35,678 bases of DNA from the IMG/VR virus record IMGVR_UViG_3300043409_001617, positions 1 to 35,678 of that record; one strand, given 5' to 3'. The DNA is from a virus. This document shows positions 1-35,678 of the stretch, one piece after another (within the stretch, counting starts at the first letter, position 1; each line of letters begins with the position of its first letter). The notes beneath the pieces are model-generated. The model was given only the letters and a program-made list of their open reading frames with translations. It was not told where the DNA came from and did no database searches. Both the position numbers and the translations under genes were made by a program.

Positions 1-59
1 ACCAGGTCTACCACTCGATTGGCGGCAGCGATAACTGCTGGATACTCCGCAAGTCGTAA
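1..59 (+). CDS. 3' end of duplicated 66-aa protein gene (partial)
   Basis: The window opens inside a gene whose last 19 codons are identical to those of the intact gene at 13100..13300. The stop TAA is at 57..59. The first two bases complete a split codon. The 5' part of this copy is at 35632..35678, so the gene most likely spans the junction of a circular molecule, with about 95 bases missing between the window ends. The function is unknown; see the intact copy. Confidence 0.8.
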   Translation, partial: QVYHSIGGSDNCWILRKS

Positions 60-101
60 CCCCACCCTCAACGCCACCGGGCGGCGTGAAGCCCGCAGAA
101 A
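1..101 (+). repeat. Right part of second copy of the 323-bp direct repeat
   Basis: These bases are identical to 13242..13342. Identity stops at position 102, where copy 1 has a cytosine and this copy a guanine. The segment includes a short stem-loop after the stop codon, with arms at 71-75 and 83-87. That hairpin lacks a T-tract and is at best a weak terminator. Together with 35552..35678 it forms the second copy of the element. Confidence 0.95.
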
Positions 102-110: not shown

Positions 111-332
111 GTGACCTACGTAATCACCGCCACCAACCACGGCCTTAGCCAAACACCCTGCAATCTCAATCAAACGCTTTTCGGAACGTTTGCCAGCGAA
201 GACCAGTTTTCCGAATCCTCCTGTAAATTCGCCACCTACGCTGAGGCTCAGGCTGCCCTCGCTACACTGGATAACTCCGGCGACTGGCCGGACGGTGCAC
301 CCGTTTACCAGATCGAAAAAGCACCGGCATGA
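111..332 (+). CDS. Small hypothetical protein, 73 aa
   Basis: I do not recognise this protein. It starts at GTG, with a GAGG ribosome site at 102-105 and a five-base spacing. It has no signal peptide or membrane segment. The composition is Thr/Asn/Ser-rich, with an Ala-rich helix-like stretch near residues 41-53 and a short C-terminal strand. It lies 51 bases downstream of the duplicated 66-aa gene, on the same strand, and its stop overlaps the start of the next gene (ATGA). The three are probably one transcript from the promoter at 35586..35614, if the molecule is circular. This rightward unit converges on the end of the early operon. Confidence 0.6.
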   Translation: MTYVITATNHGLSQTPCNLNQTLFGTFASEDQFSESSCKFATYAEAQAALATLDNSGDWPDGAPVYQIEKAPA

Positions 333-556
333 CTACCGAAATCATCACCCTCCCATGTGGCCACAATATCCCAGAGGCAGAACTCCTCCGCCTCGCTGGC
401 CAGATCACCGGCCGTAGGCGAAAAGGAAAGCCGAGCGGCCGGAACGGCGGTCGCCCAAAGAGTACCCAAAGGTGTCCCTGCGGAGCTATGACAGTTGCCC
501 GGGCCGCTACACGTCGTCACACATGCAGCACACTACGTCCGGATTCCTCGTTGTGA
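329..556 (+). CDS. Small zinc-ribbon-like protein, 75 aa
   Basis: The protein has an N-terminal Cys-Gly-His motif (residues 10-12), a basic Gly/Arg/Lys-rich middle (28-45), a Cys-Pro-Cys-Gly pair (49-52) and a terminal His-x-Cys. Spaced Cys and His residues of this kind suggest a zinc-binding fold that may touch nucleic acid; that is inference. The start overlaps the previous stop as ATGA, indicating translational coupling. Its last 50 bases overlap, on the opposite strand, the 3' end of the HNH gene at 507..986. The two genes therefore converge and interlock, and one of the two C-termini may be an extension without function. Confidence 0.55.
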   Translation: MTTEIITLPCGHNIPEAELLRLAGQITGRRRKGKPSGRNGGRPKSTQRCPCGAMTVARAATRRHTCSTLRPDSSL

Positions 557-4456: not shown

Positions 4457-4461
4457 CCCCT

Positions 4462-6892: not shown

Positions 6893-6893
<1 letters not shown>
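6324..6893 (-). CDS. Hypothetical protein with possible C-terminal winged helix, 189 aa
   Basis: The N-terminal ~45 residues form a beta-rich piece (SGAQLVVVAIGGGFEVV). The middle is Lys/Pro/Glu-rich and probably disordered. The C-terminal ~65 residues, containing FRDRVYQAIWAAI and ending SHLYLVGAK, look like a small helix-turn-helix or winged helix. The start overlaps the ParB stop (TGATG). A DNA-binding role is inferred and weak. The open frame extends a further 105 codons upstream, but that stretch lies in the ParB gene and reads as low-complexity Arg/Gly sequence. Confidence 0.55.
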
Positions 6894-9018
<2,125 letters not shown>

Positions 9019-9031
<13 letters not shown>

Positions 9032-9312
9032 ACCGGAACCGCCTCGATGCTCGCCTTCGCCTCCGGCGTCACCGCCAAAATCTCAATGGCCTCCGTGAGA
9101 ACGACGGTGGAGACCGGCTCTGGGAACTTACAGTCTTTCGGCCGAGACGTTCCGGTCTGCGCCAACTGAGAGAGCGATGCCGCGCCCGCCCAATACCAAA
9201 GCCGCCGCGCCCCCGTCATCTCGACTTCTTTCCCTTCGCGCTTCGCCAGCGTTCCGGCGAACACGCCCGCGGAGTAGGTCCGCACAATCACAAACTGTCC
9301 AATCATTTCCAT
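9019..9312 (-). CDS. DUF6948-like conserved phage protein
   Basis: A 97-aa protein with a small beta-domain: IGQFVIVRTYSAGVFAGTL, then ARRLWYWAGAASLSQLA, then a TEAIEIL strand near the end. This pattern matches the DUF6948 family of phage and bacterial proteins of unknown function. The start at 9312 has an AGAGGA site eight bases before it; a second ATG lies two codons later. It overlaps the Gly-X/ParB start by 13 bases. Confidence 0.75.
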
Positions 9313-9329
9313 TCCAATTTCCTCTTTCG

Positions 9330-9554
9330 TTATTTCGAAACTGCAACATAAACCGCATTCACCAACAACCCAAAAAACAGCCCGCCACAAAACCACCGCA
9401 TCCACCCCGCGATTTTCATCTCTGACCGGTACAACGCCGCCCGCTTCCACCGCGCCGCAGAACGCTCCATCTGGCTGGCGTACAGACTTTGATCCCGATA
9501 CGCCTGGCGTAATCGGTGAAGACGATCGTGGCGACGGTGGAATGGCGACGACAT
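9330..9554 (-). CDS. Small membrane protein, 74 aa
   Basis: A basic, Arg-rich helical N-terminus (residues 1-47) is followed by one transmembrane helix at about residues 51-71 (WMRWFCGGLFFGLLVNAVYV). The positive charges before the helix would stay in the cytoplasm. The start overlaps the RusA stop as TGATG. Function unknown. Confidence 0.6.
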   Translation of the reverse strand: MSSPFHRRHDRLHRLRQAYRDQSLYASQMERSAARWKRAALYRSEMKIAGWMRWFCGGLFFGLLVNAVYVAVSK

Positions 9555-10009
9555 CAATTTGATACCTTCTTCGCGCTCTTCCTCGCCGCGCGCGGCGTCT
9601 TTTCCCTCGGACCGATCTGGTCTAGGGTCACCACAATCCGCGGCAGCGCCGGATCCTGCCGAAGGCGAGATCCTTCCCACTGCCGAATCTGCACGTCGTC
9701 CGTCAAAATCCCGACGTCTTCCATCCAATCCGCCACCGCCTGGTAAAAGCCGACGGCGTCCCCAACGTCCGCGTGACGGTAGAACACCGCCCCGCAATTC
9801 ACATCCGCCGCAATCGGCAACCCAAACCCCGCGTCGGCGATCTGCTGCCGGATCAACGGCAGCGACTTCTTCGCGATCTCCGCCCACGTCTCATACGCCT
9901 CGCTGGGAACGTTGAAGGTCCGCTTCTTCCGGAAGCTGTACTTCCGGCGCCCGTGATTTTTCTTCGTCCGCGGCGTGCCGTAAATCGTGAATGTCAGGCC
10001 TTGGATCAC
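9554..10009 (-). CDS. rusA: RusA-family Holliday junction resolvase
   Basis: A 151-aa protein of typical RusA length. It begins with the family strand FTIYGTPRTKKNH, and has the Asp-rich active site pattern HADVGDAVGF followed by ADWMEDVGILTDDVQI. RusA enzymes form dimers that cut four-way DNA junctions arising in recombination or replication, so branched DNA can be packaged. The start is GTG at 10009, sharing GTGA with the stop of the gene upstream; a longer frame to 10150 is glycine low-complexity sequence and was rejected. Confidence 0.9.
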   Translation of the reverse strand: MIQGLTFTIYGTPRTKKNHGRRKYSFRKKRTFNVPSEAYETWAEIAKKSLPLIRQQIADAGFGLPIAADVNCGAVFYRHADVGDAVGFYQAVADWMEDVGILTDDVQIRQWEGSRLRQDPALPRIVVTLDQIGPREKTPRAARKSAKKVSN

Positions 10010-10263
10010 TCCCCGCCCTCCACCGCCGCCGCACGCAACTCCAGCCGAGGCTGGCTCCCCGCCAACTCCGCCTTCCGCGCATCCCGCGCCCGCCACCCCG
10101 CCGCTTCCACCAGGGCCCAGGCCGCCACCGCTTCCAAAATGTCCGGCCATTTACGCCCAAGCACACGCACCACCAGCGCCGTACCCGTGAAGCCCAACAT
10201 CATTACGCACAGAATCGCCAAGCCACTGATTAACAGATCGTGCGCTTGAATCGTGAAAGTCAT
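10006..10263 (-). CDS. Small membrane protein, 85 aa
   Basis: One hydrophobic helix at about residues 10-33 (LLISGLAILCVMMLGFTGTALVV) is followed by a basic/Ala-rich cytoplasmic-type tail. Its ribosome site GGAGG sits right after a terminator hairpin and can pair with a CTCCGG sequence upstream, so translation may be controlled. Function unknown. Confidence 0.65.
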   Translation of the reverse strand: MTFTIQAHDLLISGLAILCVMMLGFTGTALVVRVLGRKWPDILEAVAAWALVEAAGWRARDARKAELAGSQPRLELRAAAVEGGE

Positions 10264-10272
10264 AATCCTCCG

Positions 10273-10302
10273 GAAAAAGTGGGCGAACTTTTCAGTCCGC
10301 CC
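10273..10302 (-). terminator. Intrinsic terminator-like hairpin in early operon leader
   Basis: On the minus strand, GGGCGGAC, loop TGAAAA and GTTCGCCC form an eight-pair stem with one G-U pair, followed by AC and five T. It lies just before the ribosome site of the 85-aa gene. Read-through must be possible, since RusA, ParB and other genes follow. Confidence 0.6.
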
Positions 10303-10308
10303 GGAGTT

Positions 10309-10401
10309 TCACCACAGATCAAGGAGAGGGCGCTTTCGCGCTTGTCGGAGCCACCGCCCAACTCTTCTCACAATCAAAACAGCAGCCCCAAATCCGACCA
10401 C
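10309..10401 (-). CDS. Possible 30-codon Arg-rich leader peptide
   Basis: A GTG-started ORF of 30 codons with six Arg and one Lys, a hydrophobic start and a basic amphipathic end. Its TGA stop lies seven bases before the terminator stem, the spacing expected for ribosome-controlled attenuation. The ribosome site (AAAGG) is too close to the GTG to be good, so expression is doubtful. Confidence 0.25.
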   Translation of the reverse strand: MVGFGAAVLIVRRVGRWLRQARKRPLLDLW

Positions 10402-10515
10402 CCTTTCAAATGTGCGGGTCTCGTTCTGCTGGAAGGCCGGTGGTCATGAATCGTCTGCCGCTCGGCTATTGCCCCACCGGCCCGCCCCTCTGTCTACTTC
10501 ATCGCGCCTCCCTTC

Positions 10516-10650
10516 TTACAGCCACTCGTTCGGACCTTCGTCCTGCTTGTCGCCCTCCACCGAACGCCGCCCATCAACCAGCAACACCAGCGTCGTCAGC
10601 AAAGCGAACATCAGCACGATCACCAAGCCCACAAAAATCGCCGGATGCAT
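10516..10650 (-). CDS. Small membrane protein, 44 aa
   Basis: It has one strong transmembrane helix near the N-terminus (about residues 4-28; IFVGLVIVLMFALLTTLVLLV) and a short charged tail. The ATG coincides with the stop of the preceding gene. Small membrane proteins of this type are frequent in phage early regions. Function unknown. Confidence 0.55.
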   Translation of the reverse strand: MHPAIFVGLVIVLMFALLTTLVLLVDGRRSVEGDKQDEGPNEWL

Positions 10651-10892
10651 CACTGGCACCCCCGGCCAACCATCAAAGTCACTGCCAGCCCGACCACCGC
10701 GGGCACCAAAACCACCAGAGCCCCGGCAAATGCCTTTGTCGCGCTCTTGTGCCGGCGGCGATATCGCTCCACTTCGCATCGCGCCAAATCGCGCTCAATC
10801 ACCAGGCCTTCGATCTTCGCCGCGCTCTCCGCCCGGCCCTCCATGAACGCGATCCGCGTGTCGCGGATGCCATCGATCTGATTAAGCGACAT
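10650..10892 (-). CDS. Helical protein with C-terminal membrane anchor, 80 aa
   Basis: A charged, probably coiled-coil stretch (residues 10-48) is followed by one C-terminal transmembrane helix (about 53-75; FAGALVVLVPAVVGLAVTLMV). The start was set at 10892, inside the end of the upstream gene (11-base overlap), because the longer frame covers that gene. Function unknown. Confidence 0.55.
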   Translation of the reverse strand: MSLNQIDGIRDTRIAFMEGRAESAAKIEGLVIERDLARCEVERYRRRHKSATKAFAGALVVLVPAVVGLAVTLMVGRGCQ

Positions 10893-11223
10893 ACCTCTCC
10901 TTTTGCGCTGCGACTTCATGGGTGCGCAGCACTTCGAAATAGTTGGTTCGAATCGGCGTTCGAAACGACATCGGACCGATCCATACACGCATCCCGTACC
11001 GACCCTCACCCAGCCGGATCAGCTCCGCCCCGGCCGGCACACCGCTCCCGCTCACCGTGATCGACACCTGTCCAGGCTTCGCCCCAAGTTGCCCCCACAT
11101 CGCCGCCGCCATCTTCGGCTGCAGCTCCGTCTCCACCGTTAACCCGTGCGCCGACACCGATACGATCCGCGCCTTAATCCGGATCTCCGCACTCCCAAGA
11201 CCAATTGGCAGAGGTCGATCCAT
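10882..11223 (-). CDS. Hypothetical beta-rich protein, 113 aa
   Basis: The sequence alternates hydrophobic strands (IRIKARIVSVSAHGLTVETEL, VSITVSGSGVPAGAELIRLG), with no signal or membrane helix. It may be a small beta-barrel, possibly OB-like, but I do not recognise the family. It starts two bases after the HTH gene stop, and co-expression is likely. Confidence 0.55.
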   Translation of the reverse strand: MDRPLPIGLGSAEIRIKARIVSVSAHGLTVETELQPKMAAAMWGQLGAKPGQVSITVSGSGVPAGAELIRLGEGRYGMRVWIGPMSFRTPIRTNYFEVLRTHEVAAQKERYVA

Positions 11224-11225
11224 GC

Positions 11226-11444
11226 TCACGCCGCACCATCCCGCTCCAAGATTTCTTTCGCCGCCAACTCCGCGGCTGCTGCGATTCGCGCACTGACAGT
11301 TCGGCCCGACAGCCAAACGCTGATTGCATTAGGCGTCACTCCCAGCCTGCGCGCCAGGGCCGTCTTGCTGCCGAACTGCCGCCCTAAAATACTCCGGATT
11401 TTCTCGCGAGACATCTTCCGAGCCTTCGAAGTGGGTGTGCTCAT
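11226..11444 (-). CDS. Cro/CII-like helix-turn-helix protein, 72 aa
   Basis: The central region (FGSKTALARRLGVTPNAISVWLSGRTV) is a clear helix-turn-helix with a basic N-terminus and an Ala-rich C-terminal helix. It is the second gene of the early operon, a position often held by Cro or a CII-type activator. The start overlaps the upstream stop (ATGA). It probably controls the divergent region at 11645..11732. Confidence 0.7.
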   Translation of the reverse strand: MSTPTSKARKMSREKIRSILGRQFGSKTALARRLGVTPNAISVWLSGRTVSARIAAAAELAAKEILERDGAA

Positions 11445-11644
11445 TTTGTAAGCACCTGGCCCGCCTGCGCTGCCAGCCAGAATAGCCACGCGCTTTCGAC
11501 CAGCTGCGACTGGGTCGGCCGCTTCCCGGTGGCAAGCACAGCACGCGCTTGGTACTCATCGATACTTCGCTTTATGCTCGGCTTCACGCGAATCACGTCA
11601 CTAACGCGCGTCGTGTTACCTTGGTCACTAGGTGATTCCGTCAC
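11441..11644 (-). CDS. Possible ribbon-helix-helix protein, first gene of early operon
   Basis: A 67-aa protein with a short strand and two helices (VIRVKPSIKRSIDEY, then QSQLVESAWLFWLAAQ), which may form a ribbon-helix-helix fold. The start is GTG without a strong ribosome site. It is divergent from the 11733..12062 gene across an 88-base control region with direct repeats, which would suit an autoregulator. Confidence 0.5.
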   Translation of the reverse strand: MTESPSDQGNTTRVSDVIRVKPSIKRSIDEYQARAVLATGKRPTQSQLVESAWLFWLAAQAGQVLTK

Positions 11645-11732
11645 TAAGCCAGGATATCTTGACTCTTGGATATCTTGACAGAGGTTTTCTCCTTATCTCC
11701 GCCGTCGTTTTTTTTCAAACCCTGCCGCTCAA
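11645..11732. promoter_or_regulatory. Divergent early control region with direct repeats
   Basis: Between the leftward early operon and the rightward 11733 gene lie two exact copies of GGATATCTTGAC at 11652-11663 and 11668-11679, a 16-base period. Each contains the palindrome GATATC and ends in TTGAC, the start of a -35-like element. I could not pair either with a good -10 box. The inverted GTGATTCCGTCAC lies just inside the early operon. Binding by one of the adjacent regulators is likely. Confidence 0.5.
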
Positions 11733-12062
11733 ATGGACACAACTAAGTACAAAAGCCTTACCGTCGCCCCAGAACTCCACCTCAAAATTAAGGTCTATGC
11801 CGCAGAACATGGGCTATCAGCAGGTGATCTGGTCGAGAAGGTGTGGGCCGCATACCTCGCAAAGGCAGGACTGCCGCCCCTGCCGACCGCCGAAGTTCCC
11901 GACGCCAAATATCCCTACCGGCCAGAAAACCGCGTCTGGCACGAGCGACTAGAAATGACGCTCAACGACCCCGACGAGGCCCTGGGTATCCAGAAGAACC
12001 TAGAGTGGGCCGAACGCACCGTGCGGGGAAAAACCCAACCTCGAAAGGCAAGTGGGCTGTGA
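11733..12062 (+). CDS. Divergent ribbon-helix-helix-like protein, 109 aa
   Basis: The N-terminal 45 residues fit an Arc/CopG-like fold: a strand (KYKSLTVAPEL) followed by two helices (HLKIKVYAAEHG and SAGDLVEKVWAAYLAKAG). The C-terminal half is charged and Pro-rich. It is the only rightward gene in this part and faces the early operon, the arrangement expected for a lysogenic repressor or antirepressor; that is inference. No good ribosome site precedes the ATG. Confidence 0.55.
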   Translation: MDTTKYKSLTVAPELHLKIKVYAAEHGLSAGDLVEKVWAAYLAKAGLPPLPTAEVPDAKYPYRPENRVWHERLEMTLNDPDEALGIQKNLEWAERTVRGKTQPRKASGL

Positions 12063-12104
12063 CCTCCAACTCGGGCACTCGCTTCTTCACCCGGTAGCGC
12101 GCAC

Positions 12105-12371
12105 TTACCTGCGGTACCTGCCTTTTTCACACCAAAACTTTACTCGTACGCCTGGCTGCGCCTGGAAAAGTGACTGCGCGATCTGGCAGTTCTCCCAGTT
12201 GTAACTATCTCCGTCCGCCGTGTCGAACGTCGCTATGTGGATTCGCATCAGGTTCGTCTCCACGGCCTCGCCATCCACAGCGCTATTCCGGTATAGTGTC
12301 GACGCCCCGCCCGACATCACGGAACCGCAACTGCCCAGCATCATCACGGCACACAGCAAGGTCACCCGCAT
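12105..12371 (-). CDS. Small lipoprotein in lysis region, 88 aa
   Basis: The N-terminal signal sequence ends in a lipobox (LGSC, Cys15), so the protein is probably lipid-anchored in the envelope. The mature part has two further Cys residues and ends very basic. It lies 12 bases after the holin gene, so it may act in lysis, perhaps in place of an outer spanin, though it is not the Pro-rich kind. It could also be a surface-exclusion lipoprotein. Confidence 0.6.
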   Translation of the reverse strand: MRVTLLCAVMMLGSCGSVMSGGASTLYRNSAVDGEAVETNLMRIHIATFDTADGDSYNWENCQIAQSLFQAQPGVRVKFWCEKGRYRR

Positions 12372-12383
12372 TCGGCCATTGTA

Positions 12384-12863
12384 TCAACTGCCTTGATCGA
12401 CCTTCTTGGTTCCCGGCGCCTGGCTGCGTCCGATCGTCTCCCGCGCCTTGGCCAACGCCTGAATAACGAAGCGCGGCAGCGGCATTCCCAACTCGTCTAA
12501 GTTCTCCACCACGCTGATCCACTCGCCCAACCAATACCAGGTACCGAGCACGGTCCCCGCCAGCCCCGCCTTCATCTCGAACATCTCCACCTGCACTCCG
12601 CCTAAATAATGCACCAGCGCGAATGCCAGCCCCTTCACCAGCACTCCGCGCGTGATCGGCCTGGCCCGAATTCCTCCCCGGGTCACCCAGCCACAGGCCA
12701 GTCCTGACCCCAAATCAAAGATGATCGCCCACAGCAGCAAACTCTCCACCGCCGGGAGAGTCGAGTAGAATCCGACCACTGAGGCGGCAACCGCATGCGC
12801 CCACCAAGGGCCATCTATGTTCGGCGCCAGCGCCAGTAATATTGGCTTCATTTTATAGGGCAA
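12384..12863 (-). CDS. Phage holin, toxin-secretion/lysis holin family
   Basis: About 159 aa with several hydrophobic segments: AHAVAASVVGFY, LLLWAIIFDLGSGLACGWV, LVKGLAFALVHYL and GTVLGTWYWLGEWISVVENL. The FDLGSGL motif, basic loop and the C-terminal ENLDELGMPLPRFV pattern match the holin_4-type family (PF05105). It would make holes in the inner membrane to time lysis. Start choice: TTG at 12863 has GGAGG eight bases upstream; ATG 12851 and an open frame to 12920 are alternatives. Confidence 0.8.
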   Translation of the reverse strand: MPYKMKPILLALAPNIDGPWWAHAVAASVVGFYSTLPAVESLLLWAIIFDLGSGLACGWVTRGGIRARPITRGVLVKGLAFALVHYLGGVQVEMFEMKAGLAGTVLGTWYWLGEWISVVENLDELGMPLPRFVIQALAKARETIGRSQAPGTKKVDQGS

Positions 12864-12898
12864 AGGCTGATCCTCCAAACCGGCTTCATTCGCAGAAA

Positions 12899-13015
12899 TC
12901 ACACAAACCTCATTAACCACAGCAGGCAGAGGACGACACAGCCGAGTAACCCGGCCGCGCAGAAGTCAGGCAGCACGCCGCGGAGCCAGTTTCGCCAGCC
13001 CCGCGGCCATTCCAT
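12899..13015 (-). CDS. Possible small membrane protein, 38 aa
   Basis: ATG 13015 opens a 38-codon frame with an amphipathic Trp/Arg start (MEWPRGWRNWLRG) and one transmembrane helix (about residues 16-35). It lies directly upstream of the holin and could be a second holin or anti-holin. No clear ribosome site is seen, and the upstream sequence is the 323-bp repeat, so confidence is low. Confidence 0.35.
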   Translation of the reverse strand: MEWPRGWRNWLRGVLPDFCAAGLLGCVVLCLLWLMRFV

Positions 13016-13053
13016 GCAGTTGGAATTGTTTTTGCAATACCCTCGTTTTTGTC

Positions 13054-13082
13054 TTGACAGTAATCTATGGTTAGTTTATAGT
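13054..13082 (+). promoter_or_regulatory. Strong sigma70-type promoter of the 66-aa gene (copy 1)
   Basis: TTGACA at 13054-13059 and TATAGT at 13077-13082 are separated by 17 bases, a six-of-six and a five-of-six match. Two imperfect copies of an eight-base motif, TATGGTTA (13066-13073) and TATAGTTA (13077-13084), lie 11 bases apart over the -10 box and could be an operator. Confidence 0.85.
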
Positions 13083-13099
13083 TAAAGCAGGAGAAAACC

Positions 13100-13300
13100 A
13101 TGACCACTATCACCCACAACTCAACCACCGTCCGCACGACCGCCCGCGTCGGCGACATCATGACCAAGCGGCAAGCCTTGAGCCTCATCAAACGCCTGCG
13201 GGCGAAGCGCGACGCCATCACTACCGACTTTTCGGACGGCCACCAGGTCTACCACTCGATTGGCGGCAGCGATAACTGCTGGATACTCCGCAAGTCGTAA
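13100..13300 (+). CDS. 66-aa hypothetical protein, own promoter (moron-like)
   Basis: I do not recognise the protein. It starts Thr-rich, has a basic helix (residues 21-38; MTKRQALSLIKRLRAKRD) and ends with a beta-type stretch (HQVYHSIGG, then NCWILRKS). AGGAG lies six bases before the ATG, and a strong promoter precedes it. A single small gene with its own promoter, placed between oppositely transcribed operons and present twice, looks like a moron: a gene expressed from the prophage, often to change the host or exclude other phages. That role is inferred. Confidence 0.75.
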   Translation: MTTITHNSTTVRTTARVGDIMTKRQALSLIKRLRAKRDAITTDFSDGHQVYHSIGGSDNCWILRKS

Positions 13301-13349
13301 CCCCACCCTCAACGCCACCGGGCGGCGTGAAGCCCGCAGAAACACGTAC

Positions 13350-13763
13350 CTATTGCCGGATGATGCCGGCGGCTTTTAATTCGGCGATCACCACTTCCGG
13401 CGACAGCGCCAGTTCGGTCAGATCCGACTGCAGCGTCACCTGCGGATACAACGGTTTCGCAAACACTACCGTATCCACCCAGTAGCTGCCGCCCGGGTAG
13501 CCAATCTGTTCGGATTTAAACGTCGGCTTTGGCGCGCCGGCGGCCGCGAGCATCGCCAAAGCTGCACTTACGGCCGCGTTTGGTAAGTTGATCCGAGTAC
13601 CCTTAGGAACACCCAACTTCCGCTCCGCGTTCGTTCGGTACTCCATAAACTTCTCGAACGGTGTCTTTCTCTCATCTTCCGCATCTCGCCTGACCTGGTC
13701 CATGGCGTCTTGACCGCTGTTCAGCTTGGCGATCTGGTCAGGTACTCCAATTTGCTCTGGCAT
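13350..13763 (-). CDS. Hypothetical protein at end of virion operon, 137 aa
   Basis: The helical, charged N-terminal half (residues 1-50) is followed by an Ala-rich helix (about 63-76) and a beta-type piece (GGSYWVDTVVF). No known domain was recognised. It is the last gene of the late operon, nine bases after the large ejection-type protein, so it may be a virion or assembly protein. It converges on the 66-aa gene. Confidence 0.6.
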   Translation of the reverse strand: MPEQIGVPDQIAKLNSGQDAMDQVRRDAEDERKTPFEKFMEYRTNAERKLGVPKGTRINLPNAAVSAALAMLAAAGAPKPTFKSEQIGYPGGSYWVDTVVFAKPLYPQVTLQSDLTELALSPEVVIAELKAAGIIRQ

Positions 13764-13772: not shown

Positions 13773-15839
13773 TTATCTTCGGTTTCTGGTTCCCGCCGGC
13801 ACTGCCGCCGGCTGGTTCTCGTCTTGCTGCTCTTTTTGCAGTTTGCCCACGATCTGCATGATGTTGTTGAAAGCGACGAGCGCCGCTCCCCGGTTCGCCA
13901 GCGGGATCTTCACCCCGTCCATCAGCAGCCGCGCCGCCCGTGGCGAATACAGCATCTTCGCTACCACATACGGCGCGATCGCCACTGCCGCGCCGCCGAC
14001 AGGGTTGGCCAACATCATGCCGCCCGTGGAGGAAATGTGCATAATACTGGCCCCGGTCGCCGCGCTGCCGCTGGGGTTTGGGTTTCTGGAATGCATCTCA
14101 GCCAGGCGAAAGAAGTTGTCGAGGTCCTGAATCATCGCCGGGTTCTTAAACAGGATCTTCTTCGTTTCCGGCCCCAGCTTCTGCCAGTTCTTCAGTAACT
14201 GCTTGCCGCCCTGGAACTCGCCGGAGGCCTGCGCTTCCTCCAACAGTCCCTGAAGAACTGCGCGGCCAACCTTCGGCATCTCCGCCGGCGCTTCCCTCGA
14301 CACGTCCCGCAGGAACGTCACGCCGGAGTCACCCGGGTACCTCAACTGGTTGAACGCCTGCACCGGCTCCTGCAGCAACTGCTTCAGCACCGCCCCGGTG
14401 TCGTACTTCGCCGCCGTCGCCGCCCGCCCCGCGTCTCGCGCCGCCTGCGCCTCCGGGCCAGCCTGCGCCACGCCCGACGACACCGCGTCCTCCATCTTTT
14501 GTACCGCGTTCGCCGCCAGGCCCTGGCTCAGTGTGCGCAGCTCCGGCAGATCGGCGCCACGCGCCGCGGCCTTGATCGCGCTCAGATCTGTATCGGCCAC
14601 GCTCAACGGCAAGAAGTCCGCAGCATCCATGATGTTCTGCAACGCCTTCATCCCCGTGGAGGCCCGAACCTGCGCCACTGGCATCTGCCGATTCAACCGG
14701 TCCACCACTGGCCGCAGCTCCGCTTTCGCGTTCCGCAGGTCGACTGGCAGCGGTACCCGTTCCATAATCGGCGCTTCGGCGACGTCGACGCCGGCGGCCG
14801 CGGCAGTTCGCAGCACCGATGACTGCTCCGTGGGTGCCAGCTTCGCGAACGGCTTCCCCGCCAGACTCATCGAAAACGCGTCGAGGTCTGCCGCCCCCTG
14901 CGCAGTGCGCCCGATCGACACCGGCACATCGCGACTGTTGGCGGGATCGGCTTCGAAGGCGCGCAGCGTGTCATAGTTCGACGCCGCAGTTGTGTTGTGC
15001 TTCAACACTTCCGCTTCCAGGCCGCCGCGCACGCTCTCCCCGGCCTGCTGCGGAGAAATCGGCAACGGATGTACCTGCTCGGCCATCTGGCCGCCCTTGA
15101 CCCCCAACGCCTCCCCCTGCAGTCTCTGCGCATTCCTGACAACCACCGCACCCGGCAGCATGTCCTGCGCCACCCTGCGCACAGTCAATACTGCCCGGTT
15201 TCCGCTACGCGTCGCCAGGTCGGTTGGAATATTGTTGCGATCCGCAAACTGGATCGCCGCCTGCTCCGCCGCGTTCAGGCCGGAACGGATGATCCCCGGC
15301 ACACGCACGGTTCCCTTCCTTTGCATGGTCCCCGGCATCGCGATCTGCAGGCCGAGCGCCGCCGTCTTCCCCAGGCCCTCCGCCGTTCTCCCCGCCGCCA
15401 AGTCATCCCCGGCCGCGTTTGCGGCGGGGCCCAGCAACGGAATCAGGTAGCCCATCCCGTACCGGATCGCGTCCGCGTGGTTGCCCTGACCCCAGGCTTC
15501 CCGCGCCTTGTAGAGCTGGTCCGCCTGCGCATCCAACACGCCCTTGCCCAGATTGCCAATTTTCTCCACCGGATGCCCGTCTGTGATCGCGTCCAGAATC
15601 GGCTTCGGGTCCACGGCGTCCGCCGCCGCCCCCAGGAATCGGCCCGTCGCGTTCAGCGCCCGGTCCATCACACCCGGCTGCGCGTCTCCACCAACGGTGG
15701 CCCATGCGGCCGCTGTTGCCGGCGAGTCCTCCACCAGCGTTGCTCCGTGCGATCGCGCTGTTTCAAAGTTGGCGCGAGGGATAAACCCGGTTCGGCCGTC
15801 CGGCAGCCGGACCTTCACCCGATCTTGCGGATCTGCCAT
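13773..15839 (-). CDS. Large internal virion / DNA-ejection protein (P22 gp16-like position)
   Basis: A 688-aa protein, mostly helical and Ala/Gln-rich, with a small beta start (DRVKVRLPDGRTGFIP) and a Gly/Ala hydrophobic segment (GGMMLANPVGGAAVAIAPYVVAKML) in the C-terminal part. P22 gp16 has a similar length (609 aa) and takes the third place in the gp7-gp20-gp16 series; here the order also fits. It would enter the cell with the DNA. The start is one base beyond the stop of the preceding gene. The assignment rests on place, size and composition, not a domain match. Confidence 0.65.
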   Translation of the reverse strand: MADPQDRVKVRLPDGRTGFIPRANFETARSHGATLVEDSPATAAAWATVGGDAQPGVMDRALNATGRFLGAAADAVDPKPILDAITDGHPVEKIGNLGKGVLDAQADQLYKAREAWGQGNHADAIRYGMGYLIPLLGPAANAAGDDLAAGRTAEGLGKTAALGLQIAMPGTMQRKGTVRVPGIIRSGLNAAEQAAIQFADRNNIPTDLATRSGNRAVLTVRRVAQDMLPGAVVVRNAQRLQGEALGVKGGQMAEQVHPLPISPQQAGESVRGGLEAEVLKHNTTAASNYDTLRAFEADPANSRDVPVSIGRTAQGAADLDAFSMSLAGKPFAKLAPTEQSSVLRTAAAAGVDVAEAPIMERVPLPVDLRNAKAELRPVVDRLNRQMPVAQVRASTGMKALQNIMDAADFLPLSVADTDLSAIKAAARGADLPELRTLSQGLAANAVQKMEDAVSSGVAQAGPEAQAARDAGRAATAAKYDTGAVLKQLLQEPVQAFNQLRYPGDSGVTFLRDVSREAPAEMPKVGRAVLQGLLEEAQASGEFQGGKQLLKNWQKLGPETKKILFKNPAMIQDLDNFFRLAEMHSRNPNPSGSAATGASIMHISSTGGMMLANPVGGAAVAIAPYVVAKMLYSPRAARLLMDGVKIPLANRGAALVAFNNIMQIVGKLQKEQQDENQPAAVPAGTRNRR

Positions 15840-18365: not shown

Positions 18366-18841
18366 TTACCCTCCGGTTTACTCATTCCGAGTAGAAGTTG
18401 GTCTAATAGTTGGCCGCCCTTGCGGAACGACTTCGGGTTACGCCCGTACTCCTGCATTCCCGCCCGCACAGCGAATCGAAGCGCCAGCCGGTTGGTATCT
18501 GGAATCGTGGTCACGAGCCGCCGGCAGGGCGTATTCGCCCAAATCCATGCGGCCATCAATTCTGCGGCCCGCCGAGCCCGTGCGCCGTACGCCACGGGCA
18601 GTAGGCAGGTGTGTATTTCGTAGCAGATGCTGTTCTGCGGAACCAGCACCCAAAGACCGAGCGCAAGCCCCTCCTCGCGGACGAGGACGTACCACACCTG
18701 GTCGCCCTCGACCGGCCGGTAGTCTTCCGCCGCCGGGGAACCGTCGTCGGTGATGTGCGGGTATACGCGCGGGTGGGTCATGATCTGCCGCACCAGTGCG
18801 TAGTCCTGGGTCCGCTCGAATGTCACGCTGGTCTGCTCCAT
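18350..18841 (-). CDS. GNAT-like/DUF2824 protein, P22 gp14-like
   Basis: 163 aa with a GNAT-type layout: a helical start (RTQDYALVRQIMTHP), a beta core (GDQVWYVLVREEGLALGLWVL), then an IHTCLLPVAYG strand and a helix with Arg-rich turn where acetyl-CoA proteins bind their cofactor. DUF2824 proteins of this shape sit before the ejection-protein genes in P22-like phages, as here. Its exact role in assembly is unclear. It overlaps both neighbours by less than 20 bases. Confidence 0.7.
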   Translation of the reverse strand: MEQTSVTFERTQDYALVRQIMTHPRVYPHITDDGSPAAEDYRPVEGDQVWYVLVREEGLALGLWVLVPQNSICYEIHTCLLPVAYGARARRAAELMAAWIWANTPCRRLVTTIPDTNRLALRFAVRAGMQEYGRNPKSFRKGGQLLDQLLLGMSKPEGKCQQQ

Positions 18842-20481
18842 GCGGCCACCCGAAGCGTCGTCGTCCGCGGCGGCGGCAGTCCGACCAGCGACCCGGCAAC
18901 GGTATGCGACACGGTGCGGCTGCCTTGGAGTGATGCACTCGCCGTATGGGTGAGCGCGCGCCGAGCGAATAAGACCGCTGACGCAGTATGCGTTAGGGTA
19001 GCCGTCGCCTGCAGTGCTGCGGCCGACGTATGCGACACCGTCCGCACGCTGACCAGCGCGCCTGATACCGAGTGGTCTACGGTCGCGCGCTGCGACAGCG
19101 CAGCGGACACTGTGTGCGACACGGACCGCCGCGCGGCCAGAGCCGCCGCCGCCGTATGCTCCGCCGTCATCCGCGCTTGCAGAGCCGCGCTGGACTCGTG
19201 CGTTATGGCCGTCCGCGCCGCGATCGCAGCGGACGTGGTGTGAGTCGATTCGGTGCGTGCCGCCAAAGCCGCCGATGCCGTGTTCGCGACAGAGGCTGAT
19301 CCGCGCAGCGAGGCCGACACCGTGTGCGAGACGAAGACCTGGCCCGCCGATGCTAACGAGGCCGAGATGGTGTGTGTCGCCGTCTGGCGCGCGAGGAGAG
19401 CCGCCGCCGTGGTATGCGTCAGCGTGGACCGCTGGGCAATCGCTGCCGCCGCTGTATGCGTCACGTCCGCACGCTTCACCAGCACCGCCGAAACGGTATG
19501 CGTGGCAGTTTGGCGCGCGAACAGTGCCGCCGATGCCGTGTGCGTGACCGTCTGCCGCAGGGCGATGGCCGCAGACGCCGTATGCGTGCGCGTCAGCGTG
19601 GCCTGCAGAACGGCTGAGGCGGTGTGCTCCACGGTGCGAGTCGTAGCGCCGCCCGAATCATTCAGTGGCGCCAACCCCAGCGGGGCAACCCCAAGCTCAA
19701 AATTCCGCGCCAGAATGGCAGCCGACGCAGTATGCGTTGCGGTGGCGCTCTTCAGTAGCGCAGCCGACGCAGTATGCGTTGCGGTGGCGCTCTTCAGTAG
19801 CGCAGCCGACGCAGTATGCGTTGCGGTGGCGCTCTTCAGTAGCGCAGCCGACGCAGTATGCGTTGCCGTGACGACGGAGATGAAAGTTAAGTTGTTTGGG
19901 AATTCAACCCACGGATTATTGTCCGTGGTGGTCGAATCATCCTCAGCGAGATCACTCGCCGCCGCATCACCGAATCGCAGATCACTATCGTGATCCGCAC
20001 CGCCAGTGTTGGCCGGGTCTCCGCCTACGCCAATCTCAATAACGAGGTAATCGCCAGCGGTCGCCGTTACCGATGTGGACGTCGCAGAAAATGCGCGGTT
20101 GGTCAGCGATGTGGCGACTTCGACATCGTCGCGTGTTACCGCTAAAACCGTGCCCCGAACGGTGCCGCCAGGGGAGATCACGCGAATACCGAGCGTGACG
20201 AATAGATTATTGCCGGCAAGCCGCTCCGCTGCGCGGATCTGCCCTTTGACCGTCTGCGCACTGATCGTCTGCCCAGCTAGTGCTGGCGAGACGTACTGCC
20301 TAAATAGGATGTCCCGGTCAGTATTATTCGCGTCGGCAAAACTGACTGTAGTCATTGCCGTGTTCGACTTGGTCGTTACGGCGGGACGGGACGCGGCAAT
20401 AGATGTGTCTTCCCATGCGGCGTCATAGCTAAACGACGCCGGGGCGGTTCCGGTGGATGGGAGGTAAAAACGTGTTGCCAT
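18823..20481 (-). CDS. Fibre-like virion protein with 22 copies of a 14-residue repeat
   Basis: 552 aa. The first ~200 residues form a beta-rich domain that may be a receptor-binding or attachment part. From about residue 205 a repeat with consensus THT-A-S-A-A-L followed by six variable residues occurs 22 times, broken once by a 25-residue non-repeat segment. A 14-residue period with fixed His and Thr suggests a stacked beta or triple-helical fibre. The first three units are almost identical in DNA (42-bp tandem repeats, 19718..19866), so they are recent duplications. It lies between the tail-fibre and gp14-like genes. Confidence 0.7.
   Translation of the reverse strand: MATRFYLPSTGTAPASFSYDAAWEDTSIAASRPAVTTKSNTAMTTVSFADANNTDRDILFRQYVSPALAGQTISAQTVKGQIRAAERLAGNNLFVTLGIRVISPGGTVRGTVLAVTRDDVEVATSLTNRAFSATSTSVTATAGDYLVIEIGVGGDPANTGGADHDSDLRFGDAAASDLAEDDSTTTDNNPWVEFPNNLTFISVVTATHTASAALLKSATATHTASAALLKSATATHTASAALLKSATATHTASAAILARNFELGVAPLGLAPLNDSGGATTRTVEHTASAVLQATLTRTHTASAAIALRQTVTHTASAALFARQTATHTVSAVLVKRADVTHTAAAAIAQRSTLTHTTAAALLARQTATHTISASLASAGQVFVSHTVSASLRGSASVANTASAALAARTESTHTTSAAIAARTAITHESSAALQARMTAEHTAAAALAARRSVSHTVSAALSQRATVDHSVSGALVSVRTVSHTSAAALQATATLTHTASAVLFARRALTHTASASLQGSRTVSHTVAGSLVGLPPPRTTTLRVAAWSRPA
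19718..19866. repeat. 42-bp tandem repeat, about 3.5 exact copies
   Basis: Units start at 19718, 19760 and 19802, and a partial unit at 19844. Each encodes one 14-residue block of the fibre protein. The exact identity indicates recent expansion, and slippage in 42-bp steps would keep the frame. Confidence 0.95.
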
Positions 20482-31219: not shown

Positions 31220-33260
31220 ATTCCTGCTCCTGTCCCGCCATCACTGGCTGCTGCTGCTGTTGCTGCTGCTGCTCATCGGCCGCCACGGTCGCGATCGTCT
31301 GCTTGAGGGCCGCGATCTCCTGCTTCAGGAGCTCGATATTCTCCCGGCTGCTCAACTGCGCCTCGATCTTCACCAGTTCCGTCTGCGCCTTCATCGCCTC
31401 GATGCGCTCACGCGACTCGATCTCCATGCGCTTCGTTCGGAGGTCGTCCGTAGCCTGGTTCAGCGCCTGGCTCAACTGCTCGTTCTGCTGCGCGATTTGC
31501 GCCATCTGCGCCTGCACCGCCGGCGGCACCTGCTGCTCGTTCTCGTCGCCTTCCTGCAGGTTCGGAGGCAGCAACTTCTTCAGACGCTCGGCAATCTCCG
31601 CGGCGCCAGGCCAGTCCATGTTCTTGACCAACAGGTCGCCTGCCACCTGCATCAGCGGCGGGTACGCTTGACTCAACTGCATCATGCTGTCGACGGCCTC
31701 CTGTCGCTTCGACGAGAACGATGGACCCACCGACACCGTAACGTCGTACTGCCCGACCGACAGGTCGTAGATACGCTCCACGCCCTTGTCCCGCGTCGGC
31801 GCATTGATCTGCACCACGCGCTCCTGCTCCTCGGCGCCGATGATGCGCATCACGCGCGGGGCGTCGTAGATCTGCGGAATCAAGTCCAGCAGGATCTTGG
31901 CCAGATGCTTGATGGAACGCGCCAGGTTGTCGGCGTAGTGGAAGTTGGCGACGTCTCCTTCCCTCTGTCTGGCAAGGATTGCGCGGCCGCTCTGCTCGTT
32001 CGACCGGGCGCCGAGCGAAGCGTCGTAGATGCCCGTCGTCGCCTTCAGGTCGTCATTGGCCTGCATGCGCGCGTGCGAGATCGCCTGGATGGGAGGCTCG
32101 TACACCTGCCGCTGCGGTGCCCCCATCGGCACGCCGGCGTGCGACACCGGCTTGTACTCCAGGTACGGCAGGTTACGGACGTTGGCCGACTGCCACTGGC
32201 GCTCAAACCCCTCAAACTGGCCGGCTGCGCCGATAAATGGTGCCTTCGGCGCCAGCGCGATCATTTCGGTTTCCGCGGTCGCCCAGTAGTTGTACATGCG
32301 CTGCGGGTCCCGCGCAAAACGGACCAAGCCGAACAGCTGCCGGTCGCCGTTCACAATGACCTCGTCGCCCAGAACCGGCACAATGGGGATCCACCTGCCG
32401 GGCCATTCCTGCTTCTCGAGCACCTCGAGCCCATTGACCTTGCACCAGTAGACCTTCGGCACCTGCACCGTACGCGTCCGCAGCACCGGCACGCCTGTCG
32501 GCACCGCACTCGCCGGAACCGCCGTGCCATCCGCCAGCAGCGCCAGCTCCTGCTCTTCGTGGTCGATGTGCCAATACTCGGCAATGCGTACCGACTTGCC
32601 CGTGATCCATCCCGGCGCCTGGTCGCCCACCGACGTCATGTCCGCCAGCCCGCTCAGTTCGCTGTTCGGATAGTGACCCTTGTACTCGTCGCGGTCCATG
32701 TCCTGGACGACAAACGCCCACCGCGCATCGCTGTAGTCCGTTTTCTGGCATTCCGGATCGAAGTAGATCGAAAACGGGTTGCGGATCCGCTCGATCTTGA
32801 TCTCCTGATCAAAACTGCTCTCGTCGACGTAGTCGGTGATCACCCGCAAGTATCCAAACCCAAAGGTCGCCGCATGCTCCGCGGCAGTATCGTAGGCGAC
32901 GTCGGCGTCGCTCGACACTTCGATGTGTCGCATGATCCCCTGCAGTATCTCAGCCGTTTCCGGATCGGCCTGATCATCCACCGGGTTCACCTGGATCGCA
33001 GGCCGGTTCTGCCGAATTTCGTTCGTCACCTGGCGCAGAAACTGCGGTATGCGATTGATCGTGAGGCACGGCCGGCCGCTGTTCTGGCGGTCGATCTTGA
33101 TGTTCTCAGGCCACTGCTCCCCGGCCCTAAACCGCAGATCCTCGAGCGACTCGCGCCGGATCGACTCCTCGGCCTCCGACGCCAACTTAAACCGCTCGCG
33201 CGCCTGCTGCAGCAGCTTCTCGTCGCCGGTCAGCCCGTCTTTTTTGTCGTCGTAGTCCAT
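31209..33260 (-). CDS. Portal protein, P22 gp1-like
   Basis: About 683 aa, near P22 gp1 (725 aa). Features include RRESLEDLRFRAGEQWPE, then RPCLTINRIPQFLRQVTNEIRQNRP, GIMRHIEVSSDADVAYDTA and NPFSIYFDPECQKTDYSDAR, typical of the P22 portal family (PF16510). The C-terminal ~150 residues form a Gln-rich coiled coil (barrel) ending in a run of Gln. Twelve copies make the DNA entry channel. Start 33260 forms TAATG with the terminase stop; ATG 33272 is an alternative. Confidence 0.9.
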   Translation of the reverse strand: MDYDDKKDGLTGDEKLLQQARERFKLASEAEESIRRESLEDLRFRAGEQWPENIKIDRQNSGRPCLTINRIPQFLRQVTNEIRQNRPAIQVNPVDDQADPETAEILQGIMRHIEVSSDADVAYDTAAEHAATFGFGYLRVITDYVDESSFDQEIKIERIRNPFSIYFDPECQKTDYSDARWAFVVQDMDRDEYKGHYPNSELSGLADMTSVGDQAPGWITGKSVRIAEYWHIDHEEQELALLADGTAVPASAVPTGVPVLRTRTVQVPKVYWCKVNGLEVLEKQEWPGRWIPIVPVLGDEVIVNGDRQLFGLVRFARDPQRMYNYWATAETEMIALAPKAPFIGAAGQFEGFERQWQSANVRNLPYLEYKPVSHAGVPMGAPQRQVYEPPIQAISHARMQANDDLKATTGIYDASLGARSNEQSGRAILARQREGDVANFHYADNLARSIKHLAKILLDLIPQIYDAPRVMRIIGAEEQERVVQINAPTRDKGVERIYDLSVGQYDVTVSVGPSFSSKRQEAVDSMMQLSQAYPPLMQVAGDLLVKNMDWPGAAEIAERLKKLLPPNLQEGDENEQQVPPAVQAQMAQIAQQNEQLSQALNQATDDLRTKRMEIESRERIEAMKAQTELVKIEAQLSSRENIELLKQEIAALKQTIATVAADEQQQQQQQQPVMAGQEQEYGG

Positions 33261-34720
33261 TAACCCATCCATCCGCCAGAGGCGTCATGCCCGACGTACG
33301 CAAACGACTGCTCAGCCTCTTTCGGCTTCGGCTGCGTTTTCATCCGGTCGCGCCCGCTCATCACCAGGTAGCGCGTGGCGTCCATAAGGTGGTCTTTCTC
33401 TTTGACCACGCGCCCAGCGTCGTCGCGCCGGTACAACCGGAACTCTTCGCGCCAGTTCGCCAACGACGCGAACACCTTCAGTTTCCCGGCCGACAGCATC
33501 TGCCAGACTTCGTACAGCCCAGCCTCGACCGCGTTCTGCGCGGCTTCAATGTCCAGGCCCAGGTCCAGGTACATCTGCATCAGCTGCGCGCCATCACGCT
33601 GCGCACGGCCGCGTGCGGCGGGATCGATGACGCCGGGAACCCACGCGCCGCGGCTCTTGATCGCTTCGACGTGGACGACCGGCTCGGCCTGCCCCCGGTA
33701 ATGCTCCGAGTACAGGTACATCGTGCCGCTCTCCCGATCCATGGCGCCCCAGATGGCTGCGGTGCGGTTCCAACCAACGTCGAGCGCGAACGCCCTCGGC
33801 CAGTGATCCGGAATAGCGAAATCAGGCACGACCACATCTGACTCGGGCACCGGGTAGATAGCGCCGCTACCCAGCGCCGGCACGCCAAGGGCGCGCGCGT
33901 CACGCTGGTGCGGGGGAATCGCCGCCCACAGTTCCTCCTTGACCTCTTTGGACAAGTGCGGAACGTCGTCCCAGGTGCAGCCGACCACGAAGCGCTTGCC
34001 GCCTTTCGCCTGCTCAAAATCGCCGCCGGGCAGAAACTGCAGCACCAACGGCGTCAGCCCGTTCAACGGCGTGAACGTACACAACAACATGCCGTTCGTC
34101 GTCATCGTCCGCAGCAGGCACTCCGCGTAGATGTCTTCCCCTGGCTCCTCATCGAGCCAGATCAGATCCTGCTCAGTGCCTTGAAACGACTCGCGCCGCT
34201 GGTCGTACGACTTAAGCACCAGCGTGCTGACGCCACCGGAAGCGTGCCGCACCCAGATGGTGTCCACCGCATCTGCCACGCCTGCCTTCGCGGTCGTCTT
34301 GAGCAACAGGTCGCCCGGTATCATCCCGGTGCCGTGGCTGCCGGCCTGGCCAAGCAGTTTCTGCTGCAAGATTTCGCGCACAGTCTTGCTGGTGTCGCCC
34401 GCCGCCCACGCCTTAATCGGCCGCTGGAACCGGCGCCCATGCCACCACTCCGGATAGTTACCGGTAAGGTGCAGCGTGACCTCATACGCTCCAACGCCCT
34501 CGGTCTTTCCGACGCGATTCGCCGCCAGCATCAACCGTTCGCGATGTTTCGCGCCGGCCGCGAAGAACGACAAATGCCGCGGATACAACTCTCTGCGCAG
34601 CTCCCCGGCTTCCGGATAGTACCGGTTGATCTTTGTCCGCGCCCGCCGGCGGAGCTCAGCCGTCGCTGCGGCCGCTAGCTCGCCCAAGGAGCTTGGTGAA
34701 AGTTGTGAGATCGTCGTCAC
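33260..34720 (-). CDS. terL: Terminase large subunit (ATPase/nuclease)
   Basis: 486 aa, near P22 gp2 (499 aa). The ATPase has a Walker A-like AANRVGKTE (residues 67-75) and Walker B LIWLDEEP (186-193). The nuclease has ALDVGWN (D314) and a late KDHLMDATRY. It drives DNA into the procapsid and cuts it, most likely by a headful mechanism given its relatives. It overlaps the small terminase by 65 bases and the portal start. Confidence 0.95.
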   Translation of the reverse strand: MTTISQLSPSSLGELAAAATAELRRRARTKINRYYPEAGELRRELYPRHLSFFAAGAKHRERLMLAANRVGKTEGVGAYEVTLHLTGNYPEWWHGRRFQRPIKAWAAGDTSKTVREILQQKLLGQAGSHGTGMIPGDLLLKTTAKAGVADAVDTIWVRHASGGVSTLVLKSYDQRRESFQGTEQDLIWLDEEPGEDIYAECLLRTMTTNGMLLCTFTPLNGLTPLVLQFLPGGDFEQAKGGKRFVVGCTWDDVPHLSKEVKEELWAAIPPHQRDARALGVPALGSGAIYPVPESDVVVPDFAIPDHWPRAFALDVGWNRTAAIWGAMDRESGTMYLYSEHYRGQAEPVVHVEAIKSRGAWVPGVIDPAARGRAQRDGAQLMQMYLDLGLDIEAAQNAVEAGLYEVWQMLSAGKLKVFASLANWREEFRLYRRDDAGRVVKEKDHLMDATRYLVMSGRDRMKTQPKPKEAEQSFAYVGHDASGGWMG

Positions 34721-35054
34721 TAAAACCGCTCAGATCGAACTTCACCGGGCCGTCATCCAGCCCAGTGACTTCCAACTTCTGCTTCCCACTGAACCCGGTG
34801 CGGTCCAAAATATCGGCAGCCACCCGCACCTGCAGACCTGGCTCGGTGGAATCCAGAAGCCGATCCTCAATCACTGTAATCGCCGGATCTACTAAAGCCC
34901 TCAACCGTTCAGCCGCGCTGCGCTGCACGTGGGAAGCCGCGCCGCCGTGCATCACGCAAACCGTCCCGCCAGGAATCGAACTCCGCAAACATCGCTTCTT
35001 GCTCTGCTTACTCGTCGCCGTACATTGTCGATCCATGCGCTTGCCTTTTTCCAT
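34656..35054 (-). CDS. terS: Terminase small subunit
   Basis: About 132 aa. The N-terminal Cys/His segment (QCTATSKQSKKRC ... IPGGTVCVMHGGAA) is the pattern of a widespread group of small terminases, followed by helices (AERLRALVDPAITVIEDRL) and the acidic C-terminal tail that contacts TerL. It recognises the packaging start on phage DNA. The start at 35054 has AGGG; ATG 35036 is an alternative. Confidence 0.75.
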   Translation of the reverse strand: MEKGKRMDRQCTATSKQSKKRCLRSSIPGGTVCVMHGGAASHVQRSAAERLRALVDPAITVIEDRLLDSTEPGLQVRVAADILDRTGFSGKQKLEVTGLDDGPVKFDLSGFSDDDLTTFTKLLGRASGRSDG

Positions 35055-35071
35055 GGGGTACCCTACGCCAA

Positions 35072-35464
35072 TCAGCGATTCTCGTAACGCACGCGTATCC
35101 CGTCGACGCGCACCAACGCCGTCACCATTCGCCTCTTTGTGGGGCGCTGAGGCAATTGTGCAACGGGTATACAACGAACTTCCTTGGCCTTCAAGTGCCG
35201 CCGCACAGCGTCATACCCCATGCCGGAAATCGATGAGTTGCGGAGTGATCGACCCAGCGCAGTGCGATGTCGATCGAGCAGCCGTAGGCGCCCGCCCTCT
35301 TCGAAGAATGCGCGGCCCTGGCGGACCCAGCGCTCTGCGTGCTTAATGCCAATCACACCCGGGTGGCCCGCAGGTGGATTTGTAATAGTGAGAAGGTCGT
35401 GTGTAGACACGTGTGGTGTGCTTGCGCGGTCCGTACTGGCTACGCTGCCGGGTATACCCGACAA
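35072..35464 (-). CDS. Hypothetical protein, first gene of virion operon
   Basis: Up to 130 aa, Arg-rich, with the piece HAERWVRQGRAFFEEGGRLRLL, which resembles short phage proteins where a Trp-containing helix precedes a strand. It could be an assembly or regulatory factor. The frame starts at TTG 35464; GTG 35410 and GTG 35356 are shorter choices, and the first 36 residues may be non-coding. It lies 17 bases before the small terminase. Confidence 0.5.
   Translation of the reverse strand: MSGIPGSVASTDRASTPHVSTHDLLTITNPPAGHPGVIGIKHAERWVRQGRAFFEEGGRLRLLDRHRTALGRSLRNSSISGMGYDAVRRHLKAKEVRCIPVAQLPQRPTKRRMVTALVRVDGIRVRYENR
35449..35460. promoter_or_regulatory. 12-bp palindrome at start of virion operon
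   Basis: CGGGTATACCCG is a perfect palindrome, overlapping the first codons of the longest version of the 130-aa ORF. It may be an operator of the late region. A related GGGTATAC also occurs at 35165. Confidence 0.35.
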
Positions 35465-35540: not shown

Positions 35541-35569
35541 AACATAATCCATTGGAATTGTTTTTGCAA
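35541..35569 (-). promoter_or_regulatory. Possible leftward late promoter
   Basis: TTGCAA (rc at 35564-35569) and TATGTT (rc at 35541-35546), 17 bases apart; each matches consensus at four of six. The -35 is in the repeated element, the -10 just outside it. It points to the terminase genes. Confidence 0.35.
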
Positions 35570-35585
35570 TACCCTCGTTTTTGTC

Positions 35586-35614
35586 TTGACAGTAATCTAT
35601 GGTTAGTTTATAGT
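35586..35614 (+). promoter_or_regulatory. Strong sigma70-type promoter (copy 2)
   Basis: TTGACA (35586-35591) and TATAGT (35609-35614), 17 bases apart, identical to copy 1. In a circular molecule it would also transcribe the ORFs at 111..556. Confidence 0.85.
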
Positions 35615-35631
35615 TAAAGCAGGAGAAAACC

Positions 35632-35678
35632 ATGACCACTATCACCCACAACTCAACCACCGTCCGCACGACCGCCCG
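35632..35678 (+). CDS. 5' end of duplicated 66-aa gene (partial)
   Basis: The first 15 codons plus two bases, identical to the start of the gene at 13100. AGGAG is six bases upstream. The rest is expected at 1..59 after about 95 missing bases. Confidence 0.8.
   Translation, partial: MTTITHNSTTVRTTA

Follow-up and report, generated by a model that had tools for sequence, protein, structure and literature searches.

Genome context of the repeated unit

The window, the whole 35,678-base stretch of viral DNA analysed here, derives from an environmental sample and belongs to a P22-like phage of the temperate type. Its minus strand carries portal, scaffold, P22-type coat, head-tail, DNA-ejection and terminase genes at 13350-35174, and replication, integrase, HNH, ParB-like and holin genes are found at 1827-12920. 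Among bacterial genomes, the top capsid match was a 57 % relative in a genome of Candidatus Sulfopaludibacter; an Acidobacteriota host is suggested by this, though not proven. The ParB-like protein (712 aa) displayed a long N-terminal Gly/Ser/Asp/Tyr repeat tract encoded by 12- and 18-base units (8483-9031, minus strand), and 42-base repeats, three of them near-identical and in tandem, were present at 18967-19873 (minus strand) inside a 552-aa gene of the tail region (18823-20481).

The preliminary description of this window reported a 323-base unit, here termed R, with an intact internal copy at 13020-13342 and an exact recurrence at both window ends, and this was confirmed base for base. Positions 35552-35678 equal 13020-13146 (R bases 1-127, 127 of 127 identical) and positions 1-101 equal 13242-13342 (R bases 223-323, 101 of 101 identical), both on the same strand; for the 95 bases at 13147-13241 a second copy is absent from the record. 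The flanking bases are unlike on the left (13019 G, 35551 A) and on the right (13343 C, 102 G), hence both boundaries of R are sharp. Recurrence by chance is excluded. A further 81 viral loci, each 10 kb or longer, were searched for exact direct repeats of at least 100 bases spaced more than 3 kb apart; none was found, so duplications of this kind are uncommon; that of R is real, exact and rare. The features of both copies and their neighbours, several of them compared with G001/L004, a contig of another phage, were as follows.

13020..13342, plus strand: R, complete internal copy, an exact repeat of 35552-35678 and 1-101
35552..35678, plus strand: terminal R copy, bases 1-127, with promoter, ribosome binding site and the first 47 ORF bases (127/127)
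1..101, plus strand: terminal R copy, bases 223-323, with ORF end, stop codon at 57-59 and linker (101/101)
13054..13082, plus strand: sigma70-like promoter TTGACA-17-TATAGT, fitting the cassette promoter motif TTGACAGYAATNNANNGTTNGNTTATAGTTAAAG
13100..13300, plus strand: R ORF of 66 aa, MTTITHNSTTVRTT...DNCWILRKS, with 98 % amino acid identity to L004:10001-10198
13301..13342, plus strand: C-rich spacer and hairpin linker, stem CGGGC 13319-13323 / GCCCG 13332-13336
71..100, plus strand: hairpin linker of the terminal copy, between the 66-aa and 73-aa genes (nhmmer E=5.2e-9)
111..332, plus strand: 73-aa gene with GTG start, after terminal R, 63 % identical to its G001 counterpart
329..556, plus strand: 75-aa gene, third in the small-gene operon, 67 % identical over 36 aa to its G001 counterpart
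12384..12920, minus strand: holin, left neighbour of internal R (Pfam Phage_holin_4_1, E=6e-12)
13350..13763, minus strand: 137-aa gene from the ORF list, end of the virion operon, right neighbour of internal R and convergent with it
13353..13372, plus strand: weak terminator-like hairpin and T-run downstream of internal R
33260..35174, minus strand: large terminase (33260-34720) and putative small terminase (34656-35174), divergent from terminal R

The large terminase matched the PHROG terminase large subunit (E=1e-30), and both terminase genes were conserved in three P22-like relatives (G002, G003 and G004). No family match was obtained for the 137-aa gene. The terminator-like hairpin at 13353-13372 was the one candidate found near internal R; chance alone would give 1.4 such candidates over the 1.5 kb that was scanned. 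To the left, a minus-strand frame of 38 codons (12899-13015; MEWPRGWRNWLRGVLPDFCAAGLLGCVVLCLLWLMRFV) encodes one likely membrane span and starts 4 bases from the edge of internal R, whose insertion may have replaced the ribosome binding site of this frame.

Promoter, ORF and linker of R

R had been described as a promoter-plus-gene unit; both of these parts are present, but the unit additionally includes a conserved 3′ hairpin linker. The promoter-like sequence looks strong: it matches the sigma70 consensus at 11 of 12 positions, where a scan of 1.5 kb would be expected to yield 0.5 such sites. Between the 66-aa frame and its G001/L004 counterpart there are seven synonymous codon differences and one nonsynonymous, and the low dN (0.007) relative to dS (0.16; dN/dS about 0.04) supports a real protein, probably maintained by purifying selection. 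Its product matched nothing in PHROGs and only SPOR, below threshold, in Pfam; tblastn against phages and plasmids and a scan of GTDB genome contigs returned no match, and the gene was absent from 257 genomes of the order to which the carrier of the Sulfopaludibacter prophage belongs. AlphaFold2 run without an alignment gave a pLDDT of 59.

The linker is ordered as stop codon, C-rich spacer, ACGCCASCGGGCGGCGTGAAGCCCGC, an AGAGGAG-like Shine-Dalgarno sequence and the start codon of the next gene, the last two elements being present in other phages and at the terminal copy. A linker profile run over the window with nhmmer matched at the two R copies only (internal copy, E=6.4e-9). The hairpin is strictly conserved, with length changes confined to the loop, and the minimum-energy fold of the internal linker contains the CGGGC/GCCCG stem, although its folding energy was no better than that of shuffled sequence. 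A simple hairpin is plausible from this conservation, as opposed to covariation. We also considered a pseudoknot (ACGCC/GGCGT plus GCGGGC/GCCCGC), which is geometrically possible but displayed no covariation and had one pair broken in 9 of 30 sequences; it was rejected. Rfam 15 covariance models gave no matches in the window, L004, L102 or L167, and the linker was absent from 396 genomes of the phylum of the prophage carrier.

Record ends and probable placement of both copies in one genome

The virus record is classed as linear, and we infer that its ends join. In a k=127 de Bruijn assembly, a contig stops 127 bases into an unresolved repeat. The right-hand R fragment, 35552-35678, has just this length, and 127 is the largest k-mer that JGI uses in its metaSPAdes pipeline (k list 33,55,77,99,127; PMC11584781, PMC10434106). 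Assuming that the source of this record was assembled with k=127 metaSPAdes, the assembler most likely halted inside R because it could not resolve the repeat in its graph, and the record was cut there. At the left contig end 101 bases of R are present instead of 127, which the simple k=127 reading leaves unexplained. A check of the 127-base end rule found no end repeats on other contigs among the records checked, and two contigs of one other sample overlapped by 249 bases; the rule is therefore not general to IMG/VR assemblies.

Gene order in relatives was informative for both junctions. The 36.4-kb contig G002, with 93 % capsid identity to the window phage, carries homologues of the lysis-end gene (window 12105-12371) at 272-490 and of the tail gene (window 13773-15839) at 2416-4476, and their proximity on one contig indicates that the order across the internal junction is right. 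The small terminase gene is followed by the integrase gene at a distance of about 9 kb in G002 and 4-5 kb in G004; in the window the corresponding distance is 4-5 kb across the joined ends only, which supports joining them. The proposal of two direct copies of R, in the lysis-tail gap and upstream of the terminase genes of a circular or circularly permuted genome, thus agrees with G002/G004 synteny at both sites, and their presence in one such genome is the best reading of these comparisons. As a separate observation, G002:14919-16933 (L094) contains three tandem paralogues matching the window proteins at 27155-27859 and 27856-28512, of which the window has two.

Two assembly-based alternatives predict much of the same structure. 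If R were single-copy in each genome, with one strain carrying it at the terminase end and another in the holin-tail gap, a shared de Bruijn graph would yield the same two-in, two-out node and contig ends would fall inside R, as they do. Such a mixture seems unlikely to us: a strain free of R at one site should give the assembler a route around the repeat, and that site would usually assemble more cleanly; moreover, full-length flanks occur at both sites in a single 35.7-kb contig close to G002 in size. Two separate circles misjoined at R, one with the virion half and the other with the integrase, replication and lysis half, would likewise give an identical assembly graph, each half holding one side of each copy. 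This is highly improbable given that G002 combines the lysis-tail adjacency and the terminase-to-integrase order on one contig, and that neither half is plausible as a phage alone. A T7-like terminal repeat was discarded since the R copies have different flanks on both sides.

With both copies placed in one genome, the exact identity of R, for which strong selection had been among the explanations offered, needs only recent duplication over the 228 comparable bases, and strong selection is unnecessary; a small number of differences between the copies could also have been masked by bubble popping during assembly. It had further been argued that recombination between the copies could delete half of the genome, making their persistence notable. 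This argument is weak: the products would be two subgenomic circles, each without essential genes and presumably purged, so the persistence of R would require no special explanation. R was absent from the close P22-like relatives G002, G003 and G004 and is known from one other contig only, so its duplication cannot be traced in siblings; the lysis genes beside the internal site differ in G002, which leaves no clean empty-site relative.

An operon shared with an unrelated phage

A search for R in other phages and genomes retrieved the 66-aa gene in G001/L004 but no other match in the collections searched. This contig belongs to a phage with RecE- and RecT-like genes that is unrelated to the window phage, the two displaying one weak, chance-like match outside the small-gene operon. 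In G001 the 66-aa gene is single-copy and is followed by the hairpin linker and by relatives of the 73-aa (63 %) and 75-aa genes. This shared gene order indicates that terminal R keeps the old operon. DNA similarity between the window and G001/L004 extends past the end of R into window positions 102-184, and internal R ends just past the hairpin. Terminal R thus appears to represent the ancestral operon context, and internal R a derived, truncated copy. The same gene would occupy two sites, as had been claimed, but the two cannot be treated as equivalents, since terminal R heads the operon shared with G001.

Promoter-ORF-linker cassettes in other phages

We scanned IMG/VR for the linker pattern and, separately, for the promoter motif. 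The linker in its full context was found in about 25 phage contigs, mostly in one to three copies per contig, and the cassette promoter motif in 17 viral stretches, 14 of which were also in the linker-pattern set. The R promoter fits the motif upstream of many small genes in linker-bearing contigs. Unrelated upstream ORFs in these islands share opening codons (MNSA...); the R ORF has no MNSA start, though its cassette promoter and linker are present. Across the same linker, one upstream family may be joined to up to six downstream families, as in the following pairings.

F1, downstream partners: F2, F4, F6, F8, F9 or F14
F2, upstream partners: F1, F3, F5, F18 or F27
F4, upstream partners: F1, F3, F5 or F7

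Recombination at the constant promoter and linker would be the simplest explanation for these pairings, the shared promoters and linkers acting as recombination joints. A distant second cassette copy was not seen in the other phages, where cassettes cluster in one island.

Combinatorial small-gene islands were observed at L004, L102, L118, L119, L123-L130, L141, L142, L145, L152, L163, L165, L167 and L230-L239. Each is built from a constant promoter with MNSA start codons, a variable ORF and a constant hairpin-Shine-Dalgarno linker, with the same families recurring in many pairings, and many second-position ORFs end in ..ATR. Two recurrent promoter classes were evident in L004, L230, L231 and L237, one of which has the palindrome ATAAGCGCTTAT between its hexamers; this looks like an operator for a shared repressor. 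Four cassette-bearing phage contigs of 36.7-40.9 kb, G014, G020, G023 and G026 (L217, L220, L224 and L226), each have an end that belongs to a common sequence family (read as CGCGCGAGTTTTTCCCAACTTT or as its complement), which is what fixed (cos-type) genome ends would produce.

We consider the odds roughly even that these environmental phages, possibly of Acidobacteriota, carry an uncharted combinatorial cassette system in which constant flanks, putatively the promoter and 5′ codons on one side and the hairpin-Shine-Dalgarno linker on the other, allow unrelated small accessory ORFs to be swapped and newly combined, and a single cassette to be copied to a fresh intergenic position in a different phage type, the window being an instance. 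This wider system is of more interest than the duplication of R itself. With a constant promoter and a constant hairpin linker joining many different small genes in about 25 contigs, the shuffling of genes within phage accessory islands would be open to direct tests, and the cassette motifs offer a sequence handle for collecting small, probably host-directed phage genes from metagenomes.

Proposed origin of the two copies

Our preferred reading, to which we assign a probability of about 0.7, is that R represents a single promoter-ORF-linker cassette from an island of shuffled small genes, that it was recently duplicated and that the record is broken at the terminal copy. The ancestral operon would lie at the joined window ends, divergent from the terminase genes, and comprise the cassette promoter, the 66-aa gene, the linker and the 73-aa and 75-aa genes. 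Its first cassette, from promoter to hairpin and without the next gene, would then have been copied to the site that separates the holin gene from the final virion gene, where, antisense to the late genes, it would be transcribed as a self-contained unit resembling a moron. Both copies are probably transcribed: from terminal R, transcription would run through the linker into two further small genes, whereas internal R would be a lone unit with a possible, predicted terminator behind it. The likely outcome would be additional expression of a small accessory protein from a second, separate location. R would in this way offer a snapshot of the movement of a phage accessory gene, with the module, its boundaries, the operon it came from and a newly made second copy all visible in one genome.

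Copying most likely occurred by ordinary or short-homology recombination. The four bases GCAG are common to the internal boundary (CATGCAG before R, CCCGCAG near its end), and as a trace of short homology they are suggestive only. The same bases, together with the constant-linker cassette architecture in unrelated phages, would also suit R being itself a mobile element or recombination site (an att site, integron-like cassette or MITE) inserted by a dedicated enzyme. We regard this as very unlikely, as R has no transposase, recombinase, terminal inverted repeats or clean target duplication, and the linkers of other phages are confined to one island. An att site in particular seems unlikely: the integrase (3010-4242) lies 3 kb from terminal R and 9 kb from internal R and does not adjoin either.

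Comparison with known systems

Promoter early stem-loops (PeSLs) combine a T4-type early promoter with a terminator motif. R and the island cassettes likewise place a constant promoter and stem-loop around variable small genes. PeSLs, or mobile regulatory cassettes, of T4-type phages (Arbiol 2010 and Comeau 2014, cited in PMC4503421) are, as summarized there, short constant promoter/stem-loop elements between variable small genes and tied to gene shuffling. Set against that summary, R-type cassettes differ in that promoter and stem-loop flank the ORF on opposite sides; the stem-loop is joined to the Shine-Dalgarno sequence of the next gene, not to a T-run, with no evident terminator; the constant promoter part often extends into the first codons (MNSA); and the carriers are P22-like or RecE/RecT-like phages, not T4-like. 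A T4-type early promoter and terminator are absent from R cassettes, whose promoter is sigma70-like, so these cassettes may be said to work like PeSLs without belonging to them.

The linker also resembles the SAS/ESAS elements of Cluster K mycobacteriophages, conserved short sequences, in part inverted repeats, located just 5′ of many unrelated start codons (PMC3203893), in that it too is a conserved short element just before the starts of unrelated genes. Its sequence is different, however, it mostly occurs in 1-3 copies per genome as opposed to 11-19, and it is coupled to a conserved promoter and joins different gene pairs.

Internal R appears to be built like a moron: it is read from the plus strand between minus-strand late genes (12384-12920 and 13350-13763) and has its own predicted 11/12 sigma70 promoter. 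The pid moron of P22, an ORFan of small size encoded among late genes and antisense to its neighbours (PMC3573128), would be a close functional parallel, R too being a small ORFan placed opposite to its neighbours in a P22-like late region. The two differ in that the 3′ terminator of R is only weakly predicted, and in that pid occupies one locus, whereas R exactly duplicates the leading gene of another operon in the same phage.
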